This document shows positions 3,047-63,308 of a DNA stretch of 64,000 nucleotides, piece by piece. This DNA comes from an uncultured Tateyamaria sp. (lineage in GTDB: Bacteria > Pseudomonadota > Alphaproteobacteria > Rhodobacterales > Rhodobacteraceae). Position 1 is the first letter of the stretch, and each line of letters opens with the position of its first letter. The notes beneath the pieces were generated by a model that did not search any database, was not told where the DNA came from, and saw only the letters and a list, made by a program, of their open reading frames with translations. The position numbers and the translations under genes are program-made. The stretch lies in the NCBI RefSeq assembly GCF_947504105.1, contig NZ_CANNGP010000001.1:62001-126000 (forward strand), in the 5' to 3' direction.

Positions 3047-4275
3047 GCGAAAGCTGACAGGTCATCGTCTTTGATGGCCTGCGCAATCTGATCCGCCCGT
3101 GCGCCCACCAGCGCGCGGGCTTTTTCGTGGATGCGGTTGGCGCGGGTCTCAAACGGAAGAGGCGTGTCGAGGTCATGGAAACGCTCCGCCCCATCCACGA
3201 TCACACGCGCCTGCATTTCGGTCAGGTCATCGACAGGCGACACGGTCACCCGCCCCCGCCACGACACAAGTTGAGGATCTTGCGCACAGGCATCGGTAAA
3301 AGCGCTGATGTTGCCCGTATCCATGCCATACGCTGTCATGGCCAGAACATGGGCGTAGGAGAATTTGGCCCCAAGACCGGTATCAGGCGCAGCTTGATTG
3401 CAGACGGTCATCCACCTTGGATGGGTATGCACCTCAACCCTCGTCGCATCACGCAGCGGAACGTCACGCACCGCTTCAAGAGTGGCATGCAGCCCATGAC
3501 AACAGGCGTGGAACTTGTGGCTGACAGCGCCCATGCGCCACGCAAACGGTACCTCTGCCCCTGCCCCGTGATGCGTGTCACCAAAACCAAGCGCGCCTGC
3601 CAGACCGTCAGGGGCCGCGGTCATGCCCGCTTGGGCCCACAACGCCGCCTCGACACCCGCACGCGCCGCCAGACCCGCGTTCAGCGGTTTGCCCATTGTC
3701 CCGAATTGCGACTTCAGCCCAGACGCCATTGTCGAACATAGCCCGATTGCGTGCCGCATCTTGTCGTTGTCAAGGCCCAGAAGCCGCGCCGCTGCCATCG
3801 TCGCACCGAAGGCTCCCGCCGTGGCGGTCTGATGAAAACCGACCTGGTAGTGATCCCTGCCCAGCCATAACCCAACCGCAACAGACGCTTCCGCACCCAC
3901 GAGCGCCGCATCAACCATGTCTCTTATTGACGCACCTCGCATCTGAGTCACCGCCAGCGCAGCCGGGATCACCGCAACGGACGGGTGTCCAATATGGGCA
4001 AAATGCGTGTCATCGTAGTCCAGCGCATGAGATAGCGTACCATTGACCAACGCTGCCTCAGCCACCGCTCCACCACGTCCGTCAAAACGTGTTGCAGGTC
4101 CCCCCGTGGCCAGCGTCGCAGCCCAAGCATCAAACGCCCCATCACGATGCCCCGCCATACCGCAGGCGGCCCAGTCCAATAGGGACAAACGCATCACCGC
4201 GCGCACATCCTCCGGCGGTTCAGCCTGCGCGTAGGCCAGAAGCAGCGTGGTAATGTCCATACTTCCCTGTTTCAA
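3028..4275 (-). CDS. MmgE/PrpD family protein (2-methylcitrate dehydratase-like)
   Basis: The 415-residue protein matches the MmgE/PrpD fold throughout, with [14 protein letters not shown] near residues 78-91 as the clearest family segment. Characterised relatives include 2-methylcitrate dehydratase PrpD, cis-aconitate decarboxylase and iminodisuccinate epimerase. No prpB or prpC is nearby, so I would not call it a methylcitrate-cycle enzyme. Two starts are possible: a TTG at 4275, 5 bp after GGGGAGG, or the ATG at 4260 preceded by AGGGAAG. It lies 39 bp downstream of the COQ10-like gene on the same strand. Confidence 0.85.
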
Positions 4276-4314
4276 AAAATCCTCCCCGAAGGGCCGCGTT
4301 CAACCGGGTCGGTG

Positions 4315-4758
4315 CTATCCATAAAGCGCGGCCGCACGCCGCTCGAACGCCCTGACAATGCGCTGCATCGCCTCGTTGAATACAACGCCAATAATCCCTT
4401 GCAGAATGGCGTTCCTGAACTCGAAGTCCACGAAAAAGGAAACGTCGCATCCGCCTTCGGCATCTGCGAAAGCCCAATTGGATTTCATGTGGCGAAAGGG
4501 ACCATCCAGATATTCCGTATCAATCTTCTTATCGTCGGGATGCAGCACGACGCGAGAACCGAACCGCTCGCGGAACACCTTGAAACTAATGACAAGATCC
4601 GCCTCCATCACCTGACTGTCCCCTTGCTGCGTGACTGTACGCACGCGCGCTGCGGCACACCACGGGAGGAACTGAGGATATTCGCCCACATCTGCCACCA
4701 GATCATACATCTGTTGTGCGGTGTAAGGCAGGAAGCGGGTTTCGGAATGTGTGGGCAT
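4315..4758 (-). CDS. COQ10/RatA-type START (SRPBCC) domain protein
   Basis: The 147-residue single-domain protein begins with [20 protein letters not shown] and contains [10 protein letters not shown], which marks the coenzyme-Q-binding COQ10/RatA branch of the START superfamily. By family it is a ubiquinone-binding chaperone needed for efficient respiration. The RatA toxin name used for E. coli relatives is not a safe functional label here. It heads a possible two-gene unit with the MmgE/PrpD gene and is divergent from hpt. Confidence 0.87.
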
Positions 4759-4833
4759 TGCGGTAAAGGTGACCTTGGACGAGCGTTGCGCAGGGATGTG
4801 TCGCGGTTGTCATGCAAAATCAAGGGGAAGCGC

Positions 4834-5370
4834 ATGTCAGAGCGGCCATATGTCATAGACCGTATGATCTCGGCCAAGGCGATTGCCGCCCGGATCGAGA
4901 CTCTGTGCGGCGAAATTCAGGACGAGTTTTCAGGCACCGACAAGCTGGTGGTCGTGGGACTGCTGCGGGGCTCATTCGTGTTCATTGCCGATCTTGTGCG
5001 CGAACTGGACTTGCCCATCGAGGTGGATTTTCTTGAGGCGTCATCTTATGGAGACGGGATGGAGAGCAGTCGAGAAGTGCGCATTCTCAAGGATTTACGC
5101 GGCACAATTGAAGGACGTGATGTGCTTGTGGTCGAGGACATTGTCGACACCGGATACACCATGCAGCACGTGATCCGCCTGCTGAAGGGACGCGAACCGG
5201 CAAAGCTGCGCACCATCGCCCTTCTTGACAAGCCCACCCGCCGTGAAGTCGAGGTCAAGGCCGATTGGACAGGTTTCGAAATTCCGGATGAGTTTGTTGT
5301 TGGCTACGGCATCGACTATGCGCAGCGCAATCGTAACCTGCCCTTTATCGGCAAGGTGCGGTTCACTTGA
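4834..5370 (+). CDS. hpt: Hypoxanthine phosphoribosyltransferase
   Basis: This enzyme salvages hypoxanthine (and often guanine) with PRPP to give IMP or GMP. The 178-residue protein has the PRPP-binding motif [11 protein letters not shown] near residues 94-104, the LLRGSFVF loop near 41-48, and the C-terminal segment [18 protein letters not shown]. The ATG at 4834 follows AGGGGAAG; the frame is open much further upstream, but that part is antisense to the COQ10-like gene and is rejected. It ends 8 bp inside the 3' end of a small convergent ORF. Confidence 0.95.
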
Positions 5371-5572
5371 ACAACCGCACGACGCTTTCGCGTTGAACGT
5401 TGCCGTTCAACACCTCTGTCGACAACGCGTATCGTGTCGGCTCATTTCGGGACGTGGCAGAAATCGCGTCAATTGCATCACGCAAATGGGCAATAGCCAC
5501 CTCTTGGGTGCGCGTATCCAAGCAGGAAATCAGCGCCTCCAGCCTTTGGATAGTTCCAGTTGAGTCTCGCAT
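5363..5572 (-). CDS. Small hypothetical protein (69 aa)
   Basis: I do not recognise this protein. The 69-residue reading frame starting at ATG 5572 is preceded by GTGGGAG at a somewhat long spacing; an upstream in-frame extension to 5746 looks like non-coding sequence. The predicted product is amphipathic and helical, with no transmembrane segment or cysteine cluster (one Cys, in [10 protein letters not shown]). It overlaps the end of hpt by 8 bp. It may be real because its composition is protein-like, but support is limited to one genome. Confidence 0.4.
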
Positions 5573-5822
5573 GGGGCGCACTCCCACGTGTGTGTTAATC
5601 CCTTTGATATGTGTGCCAATCCAGAGATGTGTCAAGCGAATTTGACACACGTCCAGGTGGTACGCCGTCCCGACCCCACATCTTGCAACATTCGGGAAAA
5701 CCAGGTCACATAAATGGGTTGCGTGAGGTGGAGGCCCGACGGCCAACTTTGCTGGCAGATGACCAGAGGGCCTGTGTCATAAACACCTAACGCGACAGGA
5801 TCAGCCGACGTTACGCCGACCG

Positions 5823-6770
5823 TCAGGCGAACTTTGCCTGCCGGGCCGCGCGAAGCTGGGCGAAGTCATCGCCTGCGTGATATGACGACCGCGTCAACGG
5901 CGTGGCAGACACCATCAGGAAGCCTTTGCCATAAGCGGCCTTTTCGTAGGATGCGAATTCGTCCGGGTGGACAAAGCGATCCACGTGGTGGTGTTTTGGC
6001 GTGGGTTGCAGGTACTGGCCGATCGTCAGGAAGTCGATGTCGGCTGCTCGCATGTCTTCCATCACCTGGATCACCGATTGCCGATCTTCCCCAAGCCCCA
6101 CCATGATCCCTGACTTGGTAAACATGGTCGGATCCAGTTCCTTGACCCGTTGCAGAAGGCGCAGGCTGTGGAAGTAACGGGCGCCGGGACGCACTTCGGG
6201 ATAGAGGCCCGGTACCGTTTCAAGGTTGTGATTGAACACATCGGGCCGCGCTTCGACCACTGCCTCGAGCACCGAAGGGTCGCATCGGATGAAATCTGGT
6301 GTCAGGATTTCGATTGTCGTATCGGGGCTGCGGTGCCGGATGGCCCGGATGGTCTGCGCAAAGTGGTCCGCCCCGCCGTCTTCGATGTCGTCGCGGTCCA
6401 CTGATGTGATGACCACGTGGTTCAGCCCCAGTTTTTCCACCGCATGGGCCACACGGCCCGGCTCAAACGCATCAAGCGCCTCGGGCGGCTTGCCGGTTGC
6501 TATGTTGCAGAATGTGCAGGCGCGGGTGCAGATCTCACCCATGATCATCATGGTTGCGTGACCCTGGCTCCAGCACTCACCCACATTCGGGCAGCCCGCT
6601 TCCTCGCACACGGTGACAAGACCATTGTCGCGCATGATCTTGTGCGTGTCCTTATACCCTTGGCTGACCGGAGCCTTGACCCGTATCCAATCCGGTTTTT
6701 TAGGCTGCGGATTGTCCGGCCGCCGCGCTTTTTCCGGGTGTCGCTGTTCGGGTATTTTCAGGTCGCGCAT
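5823..6770 (-). CDS. lipA: Lipoyl synthase (radical SAM)
   Basis: LipA inserts two sulfur atoms into octanoyl groups on lipoyl-carrier domains, producing lipoate for pyruvate and 2-oxoglutarate dehydrogenases and the glycine cleavage system. The 315-residue protein has both iron-sulfur motifs: [12 protein letters not shown] for the auxiliary cluster and CTRACTFC for the radical-SAM cluster. The C-terminal [10 protein letters not shown] supplies the conserved Arg-Ser-Ser ligand region. No lipB is adjacent. Confidence 0.97.
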
Positions 6771-6901
6771 GGATCTCTGCCAAATGGTTCAGCGTTAAAC
6801 TTGTTTCTAACATAGATAATCCACCAAAGAATACCACGTGGCGCATGGCCGCTATGCAGCACACAAGAAAAGTGCCTGGTTCCCCCTGTCCTTGTCGTAC
6901 T

Positions 6902-7492
6902 TCAAAACCGATGCCGCAGGCCAAGTACAAAGCCTGTCGAACCAGCATCGACTTCAAACACTCCGTAGCCATCGGAGCGGTGATGCACACGGAGAAAGGC
7001 AGTCCTGTCCGGGTCTGGCGTCGCAAATTCAATCTCGGCCATCCAATGGACGAAAAAGCGCTGGGATGCACCATTGCGATCAATCTCGACCTGTGGGACC
7101 TGCGAGGCATAGGACAATCCCAGACCCGCTCCAACCGACCTGAGCGGCGCCCCTTGATCCGGCACGTAACGCAGGACGACGGGAACGCTCAGTTCAAGAT
7201 GATCCTGTCGACCAAAATGTGCCGCCAACTGTGCTTCGATCCCATAGCGAAAGCGACTGGCGCCGATTCGGCGGTCCCACCCCAGCGCGCCTCCGATCAT
7301 ATAGGAGTCAGCAAATTCCACCTGTTGCGGACGCAGCGCGTCGTGCCACCTGTTTTTGGTTAGCGTACCGACAAAACCCGAGACGTATCTCTGCTGCTCG
7401 GCTTGCGTGGCGGACACACGACAGATCACAAGGAACAAGACCGCCAGCATTGCGCGGGCGTGCACATAGCGCGCCCTCGGTGATTGATGCAT
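6902..7492 (-). CDS. Exported outer-membrane beta-barrel protein, possibly PagL-like
   Basis: The start at 7492 is chosen because GGAGG sits 6 bp before that ATG; an upstream start at 7510 lacks one. The 196-residue product has a signal peptide (hydrophobic MLAVLFLVICRV then SATQA) and alternating polar/hydrophobic strands ending in the aromatic GLRHRF, as expected for an outer-membrane barrel. A HRSDGYGVFE segment near the C-terminus has a His-x-Ser followed by Glu, recalling the catalytic triad of the lipid A deacylase PagL. The Ser-Glu spacing is shorter than I remember for PagL, so the enzymatic assignment is tentative. Confidence 0.6.
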   Translation of the reverse strand: MHQSPRARYVHARAMLAVLFLVICRVSATQAEQQRYVSGFVGTLTKNRWHDALRPQQVEFADSYMIGGALGWDRRIGASRFRYGIEAQLAAHFGRQDHLELSVPVVLRYVPDQGAPLRSVGAGLGLSYASQVPQVEIDRNGASQRFFVHWMAEIEFATPDPDRTAFLRVHHRSDGYGVFEVDAGSTGFVLGLRHRF

Positions 7493-7612
7493 CCAAAACC
7501 TCCGTCGCAAGAACGTTCAAAGTTTTTGACGATGCATTCATGCTTCACCGTCTGCAGAAGTTGATCGACCCGTGCACGGGGTCGGTCGAGTCACAGCTGA
7601 ACTGAAACAAAA

Positions 7613-7646
7613 AAATGGCGCCGCGGGGAGGAGCGCGGCGCCATTT
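7613..7646 (-). terminator. Rho-independent terminator of the DUF6456 gene
   Basis: A perfect 12-bp stem, AAATGGCGCCGC paired with GCGGCGCCATTT, has a 10-base loop. On the minus strand it is followed by a run of seven T residues. It lies 20 bp after the stop codon of the DUF6456 gene. Confidence 0.9.
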
Positions 7647-7665
7647 CGGGAAACAGGGGCGGTTT

Positions 7666-8805
7666 TCAGCCGATCATGCCGCCACCGGGTCCCATCGTTT
7701 CATCATAGTGCTGTTTCAGGCGCATCAGGCCGATGCGCAGCACTATCTTTCCGGAGCGTGCTGACCAGCCCAATTGTTTTTCCGCGCTTTCGAGACCCTC
7801 CAGGTAGCAGCAGCAGCGCAGAACGACATCTGAAAGCCCGGGCCCCAGATCGCGCAGGGCCGCCGCGACGCGGCTACGCGCACCTTCCGGACCGTTGCCC
7901 ACCCCGCTGTCCATCGCAAACCCACCGCGTCCACCGCCGGTCAGAAAACGATCCCAGTTCTGGGCCACGCGAGGGCCCATCTGCGCAAGTTCAAAGTCTT
8001 CGCGCAGGCGTTCGCCCGCCGTGACAAGGTCATCCGACAAAAAAGGCTGCCCATCCTTGTCACGGCGCCGCGCCAGCGCCGTAAGCGGCGATTCCGCAAG
8101 GTTGTAGCGTACCTTGCGTGGCTGGCCCGTGTCTGTGTCACGCACCGTACGCTCACCCCACTGACGGTGTTGGTCTGCAAAAGGTGTCGCGGCCTCGGCA
8201 AAGCCGGGTCGCGCCTCTTCTACCTCTCCCATCATCTCGGACAAGGCCGCGCGGCCACCGGGAGTGATACGGTAGCGCGTGATGCGTCCAGTACTTTCCG
8301 CACTGATCCAGTCCTGCAGGGCCATCGCCTCGGCTATCTTGCGGTCGACAACGGCAGTGCGCGTGCTGCTACCTGTCACGCCATCGCGTACGACGACCGC
8401 CTTTTCCATATCAACCGCGACCGCCAGTACCGCCCCCGTTTCACACAGCCGCCGCAGAATACGAACGGAATCCTGTGTCATCATGGTGGTGTCTGGACCG
8501 TGGTCCCGAGCAAGAGCATTTTGCATTTCCGGATCATCCTTCATGGGCTGAGGTGCAGCCGACGAACGTTTCCGCCCCAGAGAAGCCCCCAATTTGCGCA
8601 GCACCGCATCCACCAGGGGATCATCCCGGCGGGTTTCAAACCGCCGGATCTGGCGGAGCACGGTCGAGGCGTGGCAGCCCGATTTGCGCGCCAATTCACG
8701 GATTGGCAAACCGGCTTCTGTGTGTGCGAGGTAGTGTACGGCACCGTCTGGAACCCAGGCAGGCAGGTTCAGGTCCGTCGAGCAGAGTGCATCGCTGTGG
8801 CGCAT
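7666..8805 (-). CDS. Helix-turn-helix protein with DUF6456 domain
   Basis: This is a 379-residue protein of unknown function. The N-terminal 80 residues contain a helix-turn-helix segment (IRELARKSGCHASTVLRQIRRFE, about 35-57), pointing to DNA binding. The C-terminal third corresponds to what I recall as DUF6456, with ESPLTALARRRDKDGQPFL and AGERLREDFELAQMGPRV. In Rhodobacterales this gene is typically divergent from a DUF6477 gene, as here. A DnaA box and a CtrA-like site lie between them, so cell-cycle-linked expression is a reasonable inference. It has its own strong terminator. Confidence 0.75.
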   Translation of the reverse strand: MRHSDALCSTDLNLPAWVPDGAVHYLAHTEAGLPIRELARKSGCHASTVLRQIRRFETRRDDPLVDAVLRKLGASLGRKRSSAAPQPMKDDPEMQNALARDHGPDTTMMTQDSVRILRRLCETGAVLAVAVDMEKAVVVRDGVTGSSTRTAVVDRKIAEAMALQDWISAESTGRITRYRITPGGRAALSEMMGEVEEARPGFAEAATPFADQHRQWGERTVRDTDTGQPRKVRYNLAESPLTALARRRDKDGQPFLSDDLVTAGERLREDFELAQMGPRVAQNWDRFLTGGGRGGFAMDSGVGNGPEGARSRVAAALRDLGPGLSDVVLRCCCYLEGLESAEKQLGWSARSGKIVLRIGLMRLKQHYDETMGPGGGMIG

Positions 8806-59845: not shown

Positions 59846-60169
59846 ATGCAATTGCCACCCAAAGTCACAGAACGCGCCTTTGAACGCCTGGCCGAGATCG
59901 GAGCCGCCGACCAAGGGCAAGCCTTGCGCGTTGCTGTCGAGGGTGGCGGCTGTTCGGGCTTTCAATACGAAATCGCGCTGGACGACCCAAAGGCGGACGA
60001 CCTTGTTTTAGAGGGTGCGGGCCAGAAGGTCGTCGTGGACAGCATCAGCCTGCCCTTCCTGTCGAACGCGGTGATTGATTTCTCCGAAGAACTGATCGGC
60101 GCGCGCTTCGTCATCGAGAACCCGAACGCCACCAGCTCTTGCGGCTGCGGCACGTCGTTTTCCATGTAG
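59846..60169 (+). CDS. IscA/ErpA-type iron-sulfur carrier
   Basis: The 107-residue A-type carrier has the three cluster cysteines: Cys36 in GGGCSGF and Cys99, Cys101 in SCGCGTSF. It carries Fe-S clusters to apoproteins. The divergent dgt neighbour is a conserved arrangement in this group. I cannot separate ErpA from IscA/SufA on sequence alone. It ends 3 bp before the convergent DUF6902-like gene. Confidence 0.92.
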   Translation: MQLPPKVTERAFERLAEIGAADQGQALRVAVEGGGCSGFQYEIALDDPKADDLVLEGAGQKVVVDSISLPFLSNAVIDFSEELIGARFVIENPNATSSCGCGTSFSM

Positions 60170-60172
60170 CGG

Positions 60173-61228
60173 TCAGGCGCGCGCAAACAGCTCGAAGAAC
60201 GGTTCGAACTGGCTGGTTGACGCAATCGTCGTTTCAAGAACAAACGCCGCATCATCGTCCAGCAGATCAAAGATATAGTCACGCATTTGACCCCAGTCGC
60301 AATTGCGCGTTTGTGCAGCGCCGAGTAACGCGGCAGAGACCCCACGCAATGCGCTGGGTCGTTCAACACTTTGTTTGAAAATCGCCGGTCCGTAGGGCAC
60401 TGCGCCTCCGATATCGTCAAAGCCAAGCGCGCGCATGGCCCAGGATGCCACCAGGTATTCATGATAGTCGTCAGCCACCGGCCCGGCCGGTTCAGTGACG
60501 ATCTCAAATCCTGCCAGAGATTTGCGCACCGCATCAATCCAGATCGGAGCGGGCTGTTGCCCCGCCTGCAGCAGAGCTACGCAAACCTCGGCCAGCAGAT
60601 CGATATTCTGCTCCAGATAGGCCAGTATCCCCACATATTCGAGGCTGCGCAGGGTCATCGCATCCAGACCGGGATCGCGACGGCCATATTCAGACAAGTA
60701 AAAGACGATATGCGTCAGTTCATAGGCCGCCTTCTTGTTGGGCAGCGCAAATGTCTCGTGTCGTGCTGTGAACGCGCGCAATCGGTCATCCAATCCGGCA
60801 TCGGCGGCGGCGCAGTTCACGCCCCGCCGCGCCAGCAAACGTCGTGCTTCCGCCCGCTGCAGATCGCTGAGTTCGGCATCCACCACCCCCTGTTGCGCAA
60901 CCCAGTGGCAAAGCTCTTCCATCTGTGTCCCCGGCACGCCGAGGTCTTCAAGATCCAGACCAATGGACAGCAGGAAGCGATAGTACTGCGGAAAGAACTG
61001 CAGGCGCTCTGCAAGCTTGTTATAAAAGTCATGATGCGGGGCAAGTGCATTGGCACAAACGGGCGTGCCAGTGCACTCCAGAATACTCAGTAGCTCCGCA
61101 TTTTCCTTGAGCCAGAACACGTCATCTTGAAGTCGGCGCTGAGTTGCGAACAAGTCAATCAACCCTTCCGCCCGCTCATCAAGACGCTGTCGGCGCGGCG
61201 GGACGTTCAGTGCAATAACATTTGACAT
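60173..61228 (-). CDS. DUF6902-like helical protein, partner of the repeat protein
   Basis: The 351-residue protein is not an enzyme family I can name; from memory it resembles what is catalogued as DUF6902. It is all-helical, without signal peptide or transmembrane segment. Two notable segments are RLQFFPQYYRFLLSIGLDLEDLG (76-97) and AAYELTHIVFYLSEYGRRDPG (168-187); the second resembles the Thr-His-x-x-Phe-Tyr pattern of some alpha/alpha-toroid proteins. It begins 48 bp after the repeat protein on the same strand with GGGG before the ATG, so the two form an operon. Confidence 0.65.
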   Translation of the reverse strand: MSNVIALNVPPRRQRLDERAEGLIDLFATQRRLQDDVFWLKENAELLSILECTGTPVCANALAPHHDFYNKLAERLQFFPQYYRFLLSIGLDLEDLGVPGTQMEELCHWVAQQGVVDAELSDLQRAEARRLLARRGVNCAAADAGLDDRLRAFTARHETFALPNKKAAYELTHIVFYLSEYGRRDPGLDAMTLRSLEYVGILAYLEQNIDLLAEVCVALLQAGQQPAPIWIDAVRKSLAGFEIVTEPAGPVADDYHEYLVASWAMRALGFDDIGGAVPYGPAIFKQSVERPSALRGVSAALLGAAQTRNCDWGQMRDYIFDLLDDDAAFVLETTIASTSQFEPFFELFARA

Positions 61229-61276
61229 TTTATGTTTACCCCTTTGTCTGCTGCATAATCGTCCCGCCGCCCGTCA

Positions 61277-61582
61277 TCAGGATCCTGACGAGAACAGGCT
61301 TGTCAGGTCACCACGTAGGGTCGCGCCAGCACCCAAAGAGATCACCTTGGAGGCATCTCCAGGCGCGCTGCTGGTCGAGAACAGTTCGACACCATCCCCA
61401 GCTGTTGTTTCATGCGCATTGGGTGCACTGCAGGTGGAAAACATCTCGACACCTTCACCGGCAGCAACGTCGCATGACGTCGGCGTACTGCTGGTCGAGA
61501 ACATTTCAACCCCTTCACCCGTGTGCAGACCGCTGATCGAAGTGGTGTCCAGAGCGATGTGTGTTTTGCGTAGAGCCGTCAT
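61277..61582 (-). CDS. Small protein with three 20-residue repeats, possible peptide precursor
   Basis: The 101-residue protein has a 21-residue leader (MTALRKTHIALDTTSISGLHT), then three tandem units beginning at 22, 42 and 62: GEGVEMFSTSSTP, GEGVEMFSTCSAP and GDGVELFSTSSAP. Each is followed by a variable 7-residue spacer. The tail SLGAGATLRGDLTSLFSSGS completes it. Ser/Thr and acidic residues dominate; Cys occurs only at 37 and 51. There is no signal peptide. The ATG follows AGGGAAG. Leader-plus-repeated-core layout is typical of ribosomally made, modified peptides, but this is inference. Confidence 0.7.
   Translation of the reverse strand: MTALRKTHIALDTTSISGLHTGEGVEMFSTSSTPTSCDVAAGEGVEMFSTCSAPNAHETTAGDGVELFSTSSAPGDASKVISLGAGATLRGDLTSLFSSGS
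61346..61519 (-). repeat. Three tandem 60-bp coding repeats
   Basis: The three 20-codon units of the repeat protein (61519-61460, 61459-61400, 61399-61346) differ at the DNA level more in the spacers than in the GEGVE-F-ST core. They are old, selected repeats, not recent duplications. Confidence 0.75.
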
Positions 61583-61682: not shown

Positions 61683-61691
61683 TTATCCACA
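61683..61691 (+). promoter_or_regulatory. Perfect DnaA box
   Basis: TTATCCACA, exact consensus, in the AT-rich region upstream of the repeat-protein operon. Confidence 0.65.
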
Positions 61692-61759: not shown

Positions 61760-61768
61760 TTATCCACA
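61760..61768 (+). promoter_or_regulatory. Perfect DnaA box
   Basis: TTATCCACA, exact consensus and same orientation as the box 77 bp away. Confidence 0.65.
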
Positions 61769-61852: not shown

Positions 61853-61940
61853 TTCAGCACCCCAACCGCCAGAACCGTTGGCTCTTGCCCAGAGCAGCAG
61901 GATGCGCGACACCAGCGGTGCAGGAGAAACGGGAGCAACC

Positions 61941-62723
61941 ATGAAAATCGCAACCTTCAACATCAACGGCATCAAAGCCCGCCTCGAAGCCCTGCCCCGC
62001 TGGCTGGAAGCTGCAAACCCGGATGTTGTACTGCTGCAAGAGATCAAGTCTGTCGACGAAAACTTCCCCCGGGAGCTGTTCGAAGATCGTGGTTATAACG
62101 TCGAAACACACGGACAGAAGTCCTTCAACGGGGTGGCGATCCTGTCAAGGCTGCCGCTCGAGGATGTCACAAGTGGCCTGCCCGGCGACGAAGATGACGA
62201 ACAGGCCCGATACATCGAAGCGACGGTCGTGGGCGATACGCAAGCAGTTCGACTGTGCGGGCTGTACCTGCCAAACGGCAATCCGGTGCCCGGACCGAAA
62301 TATGACTACAAGCTGGCCTGGATGAAGCGTTTACGGCAACGCGCGATCCACCTTCTGGCCGAAGAAACGCCCTTCTTGATGGCGGGCGATTATAACATCA
62401 TTCCGCAGGTCGAGGATGCAAAACGGCCCGACGTGTGGCGCGAGGATGCGTTGTTTCGAATGGAAAGCCGCTCTGCCTTCCGCAAGCTGTTGAACCTGGG
62501 TCTGACCGAAGCCTTCCGCGCACGCAGCTTTGGACCCGGGCATTATTCTTTCTGGGACTATCAGGCGGGGGCGTGGAACAAAGATGACGGCATCCGTATC
62601 GACCACTTCCTACTCAGCCCGAACTGCGCCGACATGATGACGGATTGTCAGATCGACAAGGCCGTGCGGGGCGAGGAAAAGCCATCCGACCACGTGCCGG
62701 TCTGGATCAACCTGGCCGCCTAG
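61941..62723 (+). CDS. xth: Exodeoxyribonuclease III
   Basis: Xth is an AP endonuclease and 3'-5' exonuclease of base-excision repair. The 260-residue protein has the family motifs MKIATFNINGIKARL at the start, LLQEIKS, LYLPNGNP, AGDYNIIPQ and KPSDHVPVWINL at the end with the catalytic His. ATG 61941 follows GGGAGC. The divergent promoter region holds a perfect CtrA box. Confidence 0.95.
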   Translation: MKIATFNINGIKARLEALPRWLEAANPDVVLLQEIKSVDENFPRELFEDRGYNVETHGQKSFNGVAILSRLPLEDVTSGLPGDEDDEQARYIEATVVGDTQAVRLCGLYLPNGNPVPGPKYDYKLAWMKRLRQRAIHLLAEETPFLMAGDYNIIPQVEDAKRPDVWREDALFRMESRSAFRKLLNLGLTEAFRARSFGPGHYSFWDYQAGAWNKDDGIRIDHFLLSPNCADMMTDCQIDKAVRGEEKPSDHVPVWINLAA

Positions 62724-62744: not shown

Positions 62745-63308
62745 CTACATAATCAGTGCGCCCCGCGATTCCTCGGTGAAGACGCGGATGTAGTCCCCTG
62801 GTGACGACCCTGCCCAATACACCCACAATCGTGTTGGCAGGTTCTCATCGATCCAGACGTAGTCGCCCTGTTCCAGTCCCCGTAACTCGGTGCTGAGGTA
62901 GGTTACCCCTGTATCGGCCAGAAAATCTGTCGCCGCCATCGTGTCCTGAAAAGCTGCTACTCCTAGAATAGGCGCATCAAAATCCACATAGCCTGTGTGA
63001 ACCCCGGACAGGCTATCGAAAAACACGTAGTGGCTTGCCACAACCGTTCCTGCCGGAATCCACCCCTTTTCACTGCCAATGTCGACACGGATCGGCTCGA
63101 CCAAAGTGATATTCTGATCTTCGTCGAACCCATAGAGATTGTCGTCGTCAAACGTGTCGGCCCCAACGGCAAATGAGGTCTCAGTGTCCAGCAAAACAAA
63201 CTGCCCTGCCCCCGCCTGACGAACGATCTTGCCCTGCAGGATCTGTGCAGACACGGGGTGCGCGCATATCAACGCGGCTAAGCCTAGGGCAATCAGAGTA
63301 TGGCGCAT
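62745..63308 (-). CDS. Exported protein of unknown function (187 aa)
   Basis: The first 21 residues (hydrophobic LIALGLAALICA then HPVSA) form a signal peptide. The mature part is acidic and beta-rich, with no recognised domain; AFQDTMAATDFLADTG and LRGLEQGDYVWI are the most distinctive segments. It is probably periplasmic. It lies 21 bp after the convergent xth gene. Confidence 0.65.
   Translation of the reverse strand: MRHTLIALGLAALICAHPVSAQILQGKIVRQAGAGQFVLLDTETSFAVGADTFDDDNLYGFDEDQNITLVEPIRVDIGSEKGWIPAGTVVASHYVFFDSLSGVHTGYVDFDAPILGVAAFQDTMAATDFLADTGVTYLSTELRGLEQGDYVWIDENLPTRLWVYWAGSSPGDYIRVFTEESRGALIM

Follow-up and report, generated by a model that had tools for sequence, protein, structure and literature searches.

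The question raised by this locus is whether a small protein built of tandem repeats and the larger protein encoded directly after it are a peptide precursor and the enzyme that modifies it. Both genes lie in the window, i.e. the whole stretch of 64,000 nucleotides from an uncultured Tateyamaria sp. that was analysed. Two open reading frames 48 bp apart, of 101 and 351 amino acids, had been described in an earlier note; both were confirmed, on the minus strand, the repeat gene coming first. The pair is flanked by an erpA-like gene (59846-60169, plus strand) and an exonuclease III-like gene (61878-62723, plus strand). In many marine bacteria of the Roseobacter group, this pairing of a repeat gene with a gene for a probable peptide-modifying enzyme appears to represent a family of modified peptides that has not been described before. 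The two genes and the parts of the repeat gene are:

61277..61582, minus strand: multi-core repeat (precursor-like) gene, 101 aa, ATG start, recognised by its open reading frame, its repeats and its homologues upstream of DUF6902
61520..61582, minus strand: leader, residues 1-21 (MTALRKTHIALDTTSISGLHT), ahead of the first repeat
61487..61519, minus strand: repeat 1, conserved half and core, GEGVEM-FSTSS, starting at residue 22
61427..61459, minus strand: repeat 2, conserved half and core, GEGVEM-FSTCS, starting at residue 42
61367..61399, minus strand: repeat 3, conserved half and core, GDGVEL-FSTSS, starting at residue 62
61280..61312, minus strand: degenerate fourth copy, GDLTSL-FSSGS-COOH, residues 91-101, forming the C-terminus
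60173..61228, minus strand: DUF6902 partner, 351 aa, ATG start, proposed maturase (PF21843, E 1.8e-150; PF21836, E 3.1e-23)

Repeats 1 to 3 are 20 residues each and consist of GEGVEMFSTSS, GEGVEMFSTCS and GDGVELFSTSS plus their spacers. The repeat score of the 101-aa protein, 11 identities out of 14 at one lag, was equalled in none of 5000 shuffles of the protein. The leader of 21 residues and the three 20-residue repeats reported earlier therefore stand; the degenerate fourth copy at the C-terminus had been overlooked. The cores of the window are not uniform (FSTSS twice, FSTCS and FSSGS), which makes it a mixed case. In the named loci that were read, the leaders of relatives start similarly (MTAQRK, MTALRK, MNAQRK). 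The repeat protein matched none of the NCBIfam models at E ≤ 10. Against PHROGs it gave nothing better than E 0.03 and the partner gave no match; the partner also had no match among plasmid proteins at 1e-5, and neither protein had a PADLOC match at E ≤ 1. On these PHROGs, plasmid and PADLOC results a phage, plasmid or defence origin of the pair was rejected.

The partner is a full-length member of DUF6902 (PF21843), with a score of 501.2 bits against a gathering cut-off of 27. It also exceeds the cut-off of DUF6895 (PF21836; 83 bits against 23.8), far below its DUF6902 score. A Pfam scan of the partner at E ≤ 10 returned only these two families and a sub-threshold DUF3541 match; domains of known lanthipeptide, ATP-grasp or radical SAM enzymes were not among the matches. 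Profile alignment of DUF6902 with three DUF6895 proteins gave a probability of 93.9% over 178 columns; judged from the sequences, the kinship of the two families is remote. DUF6902 is a Pfam family without a described function, and our literature search found it named in no paper; five core strings were likewise found in none. The accessible part of PMC12710340 names neither DUF6902 nor DUF6895. Searched by sequence, solved structures yielded no match to the DUF6902 profile at E ≤ 10, and the three matches obtained with the single protein (E 0.26-0.36) were taken as chance.

DUF6902 was present in 108 of the 394 sampled genomes of Rhodobacteraceae. Across the class, five of 385 genomes had a match; four were over the cut-off, and those four all belong to Rhodobacteraceae. 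Comparison of the two sets by script placed the repeat profile in 99 of the 394 family genomes, all 99 within the DUF6902-positive 108 and none in the remaining 286. The co-occurrence that the earlier note had proposed as a check was borne out, and the repeats were not found to be widespread without the partner. The profile missed diverged repeats (MMCCS, MMSCS, LSPSC, LMPTSN, MAQSFSAP, YIAGL). By eye or by script, a repeat gene was seen upstream in 105 of the 108 DUF6902 loci. All 108 were read, and only G058 and G687 lack the gene; the locus in G540 is cut by a contig end. The script had flagged G687 because of a chance frame, and reading of all frames showed no repeat. G493 has plain repeats, yet fell just over the script threshold (p 0.03). 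A short precursor-like protein with leader and core beside the proposed modifying enzyme, the arrangement expected of RiPPs, is therefore found in 105 of the 108 loci. The layout of leader, repeated cores and adjacent modifying enzyme, put forward in the earlier note, is supported by this linkage and co-occurrence of the genes.

In a scan of named genomes, 351 stretches encoding DUF6902 relatives were found, and the best 80 of these 351 were used as named loci. They come from Tateyamaria, Ruegeria, Roseovarius, Shimia, Sulfitobacter, Phaeobacter, other Rhodobacteraceae and uncultured bins. The closest relatives of the DUF6902 protein of the window have at most 77% identity, the best named one being that of Tateyamaria omphalii (76%). 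The repeat gene was detected in 77 of these best 80 loci by script and in one more (L097) by reading; in the other two (L075 and L080) the contig begins 200 and 460 bp upstream. The survey of neighbours covered those of the window and the stretch after DUF6902. Found nearby among the best 80 of 351 were erpA (74 loci), xth (73), dgt (74) and argS (66), all ordinary genes. Elsewhere in the window, positions 62745-63308 on the minus strand encode a 187-aa protein without a Pfam match, which is present in 3 of the 80 related loci (best 80 of 351).

The cores vary in a characteristic way. After correction of 14 labels by hand, 48 different cores were counted across 105 genomes; the repeat consensus given earlier fits the window and is too narrow for the family. 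With the same hand-set labels, the enzyme tree requires a minimum of 66 core changes, compared with a shuffled mean of 79.9, so related genomes tend to share cores, though not strongly. All cores were identical in 66 of the 101 parsed genomes (at least two copies each) and 35 had more than one core form, while 91.1% of the copies equalled the majority core of their own genome. Mean identity of the core was 0.969 within genomes and 0.475 between them, as against 0.694 and 0.438 for the preceding conserved half and 0.534 and 0.194 for the spacer; these means keep the rows of a few proteins that the parser mis-registered (majority cores SGSAP, RGDVT and GEAAG; shifted registers SPSCA, MPTSN and AQSFS). 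Between 2 and 17 copies per locus were present in the 77 named loci handled by script (from the best 80 of 351), counted with a pattern that wrongly included VSTTT in L039 and missed the last copies in some proteins. In the family set, up to 20 copies were parsed in one genome. The earlier expectation of a varying repeat number with a conserved core holds within a genome; across homologues it does not, the core there differing by species.

Identical cores could be the result of recent copying. We therefore examined synonymous codons in 698 pairs of copies whose spacers match at 3 or fewer of 9 places (G727, G591 and G682 left out). The core was the same in 558 of these 698 diverged-spacer pairs. 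At least one synonymous codon difference was present in 526 of the 558 pairs with identical cores, and their fourfold sites agreed at 811 of 1920. Selection, and not recent copying, thus holds the amino acids of the core, and recent duplication as the source of identical cores was ruled out. This pattern bears on an unlikely alternative, in which the repeat protein is not covalently modified and serves as a multivalent scaffold or ligand with DUF6902 as its binding partner. The regular spacing of the repeats (20-21 residues) would suit such a protein, as would the missing protease (the two-gene unit as read contains no protease gene) and the fact that no product is known. One would, however, expect the binding face of a scaffold to stay constant from species to species, whereas here the core changes along the tree and is uniform within genomes.

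A putative active site could be recognised in the partner. The residues concerned are:

60680..60724, minus strand: motif Y169-E-L-T-H173-I-V-F-Y177-L-S-E-Y-G-R of DUF6902; H173 and Y177 kept in 105 of 107
60587..60601, minus strand: motif D210-L-L-A-E214 of DUF6902; D210 kept in 105 of 107, E214 in 106 of 107
60461..60466, minus strand: Y255-H256 of DUF6902; kept in DUF6895 too

DUF6902 and DUF6895 have in common [ST]-H (H173), D-x-x-x-E (D210 and E214) and Y-H (Y255-H256). H173, Y177 and D210 are all retained in 105 of the 107 readable DUF6902 enzymes. They are lost only in G687 (replaced by R, H and S, respectively) and in G058 (Q, Q and L), and these are the same two loci that have no repeat gene, a coincidence with a chance of 1.8e-4. 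H256 is missing in G058 and is unreadable or altered in G582, G719 and G768, where the genes are split at contig ends. Both G687 and G058 lack a box (see below) within 300 bp upstream, and in neither does a transporter gene follow the enzyme. On the enzyme tree G687 sits among repeat-bearing relatives, at a weakly supported fork; G058 is a remote member with 26% identity and may be a different protein altogether. The locus of G687 (L133), with a DUF6902 protein that lacks H173, Y177 and D210 and without repeat gene, box or transporter, appears as a decayed form and a natural control. The earlier suggestion that the partner is the modifying enzyme gains support from the joint absence of putative active site and repeat gene in two loci, and from membership of the related families DUF6902 and DUF6895, one member of which is called a peptide epimerase in the title of a paper. 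The other earlier suggestion, a binding partner of a repeat scaffold, is weakened, also because DUF6902 retains the polar residues common to DUF6895, whose members likewise adjoin short peptides.

The pairing of DUF6902 with the repeat protein as enzyme and substrate is well supported, and we consider it highly probable that the repeat gene encodes a precursor and DUF6902 its maturase. The precursor would open with a leader of about 20 residues; the rest would be a series of units, each made of a conserved half, G-[DE]-x-[VT]-x-[MLA], and a five-residue core that is mostly uniform across the copies of one genome and differs between species. DUF6902 would read the conserved half and modify the neighbouring core, copy after copy. 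The likeliest reaction would be epimerisation at Calpha, turning a core residue from L to D. H173 and H256 would act as the bases, and D210 and E214 would be the acidic residues paired with them; release of the product by cleavage is presumed. We favour this reaction with moderate confidence because of the kinship with DUF6895, of which one protein is called an epimerase in lasso-peptide modification in the title of Shi et al. 2026 (cited in PMC13352647), and because MslH, which epimerises lasso peptide MS-271, uses two His/Asp pairs for catalysis according to the available part of PMC10406935. Given a precursor and its maturase, epimerisation has a somewhat better than even chance; the reading as a whole, in which DUF6902 matures a multi-core RiPP-like precursor and is most likely a Calpha epimerase, we regard as evenly balanced. 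Several observations speak against an epimerase maturase. No product has been seen as yet, and the copies in the window, like those in 35 of the 101 parsed genomes, are not uniform. The unit as read has no protease, and in the window the transporter is missing. One of the two repeat-less loci, G058, may, at 26% identity, be a different protein. The core is so variable that no shared residue stands out as the target: no residue is common to every core (compare FSSGS, MMCCS, LSPSC and LMPTSN).

The same precursor and maturase could also be joined by another reaction, such as dehydration, cyclisation or acylation, on a core that is rich in Ser, Thr and Cys in the parsed family proteins. This is possible, if rather less probable than epimerisation. 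The abundance of these three residues would be expected for such chemistry, and the evidence for an epimerase comes from a remote kinship to DUF6895 and a report known by its title; the two families may share fold and peptide binding but not chemistry. On the other hand, the His and acidic residues common to both families fit acid-base chemistry, and the domains of known lanthipeptide, ATP-grasp and radical SAM enzymes were not detected by Pfam in DUF6902.

In 77 of 107 family loci the DUF6902 gene is followed, on the same strand, by a transporter gene of the EamA type, an assignment based on a scan of three of the 77 downstream genes, all EamA. Four of the 30 family loci without it stop within 250 bp at a contig end. 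Among the best 80 of 351 named loci, 45 have the EamA gene, and its ATG overlaps the DUF6902 stop in 27 of these 45. The gene was absent from this site in 20 of 20 genomes without DUF6902. It is also absent from the window, where erpA is directly next, so the window contains a shorter form of the usual operon of precursor, DUF6902 and transporter. EamA relatives in the genome of the window are only remote, the top match having 29% identity at best. In most relatives, the EamA-type transporter may export the product, and the lineage of the window manages without it at this site. A transporter gene next to the enzyme in 77 of 107 loci is a further argument against the scaffold. A further element of the locus is located upstream of the repeat gene:

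61683..61691, plus strand: TTATCCACA, DnaA-box-like site upstream of the repeat gene
61760..61768, plus strand: second TTATCCACA site, 77 bp from the first

We take TTATCCACA to be the DnaA-box consensus. The spaced pair of TTATCCACA sites is unique in the whole genome of the window, at this locus. Boxes were counted over an upstream stretch of 300 bp in each of 100 loci: 97 whose repeat gene could be parsed, and also G663, G687 and G058. The upstream stretches contained 95 TTATNCACA sites (3.17 per kb), compared with a density of 0.009 per kb on the downstream side of the gene start; at least one upstream site was present in 60 of the 100 loci and none in 40. The sites cluster between -200 and -175 (40 of 95) and between -125 and -100 (42 of 95), with a spacing of 76 or 77 bp in 17 of the 26 loci that have two sites on the strand of the gene. 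The boxes had suggested that the locus might be oriC. This was ruled out, as none of 20 genomes without DUF6902 had a box in up to 1.5 kb before xth, while erpA was found there in 17 of the 20; the GC skew also opposes it, being negative to either side of the locus in a relative assembled as a single contig (a noisy measure from 20 samples of 20 kb). Control of the unit by DnaA would fit the paired sites, and another factor may read the box sequence.

DnaA-box-like sites as part of the unit, together with a small protein and a larger partner, recall a replication- or stress-linked toxin-antitoxin-like pair under DnaA. We consider this very improbable: no PADLOC match was obtained at E ≤ 1, cores that are species-specific and uniform within a genome are unexpected for a toxin with a conserved target, and DnaA control is silent on what the product does. 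A wider and doubtful extension of the epimerase reading is a new class of multi-core ribosomal peptides in roseobacters, matured by a dedicated enzyme from an unstudied epimerase family, exported by EamA where present, switched by DnaA and thereby tied to chromosome replication, with each species making many copies of a five-residue, D-residue-containing signature of its own. Such a signature could serve self or kin recognition. If the maturase reading is true, DUF6902, with its presence in 108 of 394 sampled family genomes, would obtain a function, and a compact peptide system with a maturase outside the well-known classes would be added. A core that is kept within a genome and differs between species suggests that the exact sequence of the product is important and varies from one species to the next, and through the DnaA-box-like promoter a link between peptide production and replication becomes directly testable.

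Among known systems, the FxSxx-COOH peptides matured by FxsB resemble the present one in that many cores read F-x-S-x-x, though not all, and many proteins (58 of 101 parsed) end at the core, that of the window ending in FSSGS. The system described here differs in its internal repeats, the lack of a co-occurring FxsB and the lack of an NCBIfam match. It is extremely unlikely that the repeat protein is a cyclophane peptide of the FxSxx-COOH kind that depends for its maturation on a radical SAM enzyme of the FxsB type encoded elsewhere, with DUF6902 as an accessory, although the form of the cores and C-termini and two FxsB-like genes elsewhere in the genome of the window would fit. FxsB-like matches at E ≤ 1e-60 occurred in only 2 of 394 family genomes, none over the cut-off of the model. 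As a general explanation FxSxx/FxsB was rejected on this co-occurrence. Moreover, both FxsB-like genes lie in apparent peptide clusters of their own, and the repeat protein had no NCBIfam match at E ≤ 10.

The genome of the window has 13 radical SAM matches, one of which lies in the window (5823-6770, lipoyl-synthase-like), far from the pair. On contig C9, the peptide-like cluster (L224, 3504-8156) comprises an FxsB/YhhB-like radical SAM enzyme (6642-7790), an M17 aminopeptidase (4197-5666), a 341-aa protein without a Pfam match and a 99-aa open reading frame (7857-8156) with HARSL four times. On contig C10 (L225, 478-2768), the second YhhB/FxsB-like radical SAM gene is directly followed by a gene for an aKG-HExxH-type peptide beta-hydroxylase (TIGR04267, E 4.3e-18).

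DUF6895 is the closest comparison. The partner exceeds its Pfam cut-off, [ST]-H, D-x-x-x-E and Y-H are shared, and short peptides are encoded beside the enzyme in both; it is a separate Pfam family, and its three genes that were read adjoin W-[FY]-rich peptides, unlike the tandem five-residue cores proposed as substrates of DUF6902. The short open reading frames near these three genes (L122, L123 and L029) are related to each other, two pairs with E about 1e-6 and 4e-8 when compared with compositional correction off, carry W-[FY]-rich stretches such as GPWFVL, and are possible DUF6895 substrates. In L122 there are two (754-948 and 1153-1347); L123 has two copies in one short frame, and the frames of L123 and L029 are on the reverse strand. 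As to a lasso-peptide gene context, the neighbours that were identified are housekeeping genes and the EamA transporter. No sequence relation of the partner to MslH or YmdB appeared in the Pfam scan at E ≤ 10. If our proposal is right, MslH would be alike in having two His with acidic partners and alpha-proton transfer; according to the available part of PMC10406935, it is similar to YmdB, and its target is a single C-terminal Trp. The multi-core graspetides of the microviridin type depend on an ATP-grasp enzyme, a domain that Pfam did not detect in the DUF6902 partner. As described in the available part of PMC5934393, the microviridin precursor AMdnA carries three cores that are served by the ATP-grasp ligase AMdnC. 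One enzyme with several cores per chain is also what we propose here; the difference lies in the enzyme class and in the number of cores, three in AMdnA and up to about 20 copies in the present family.
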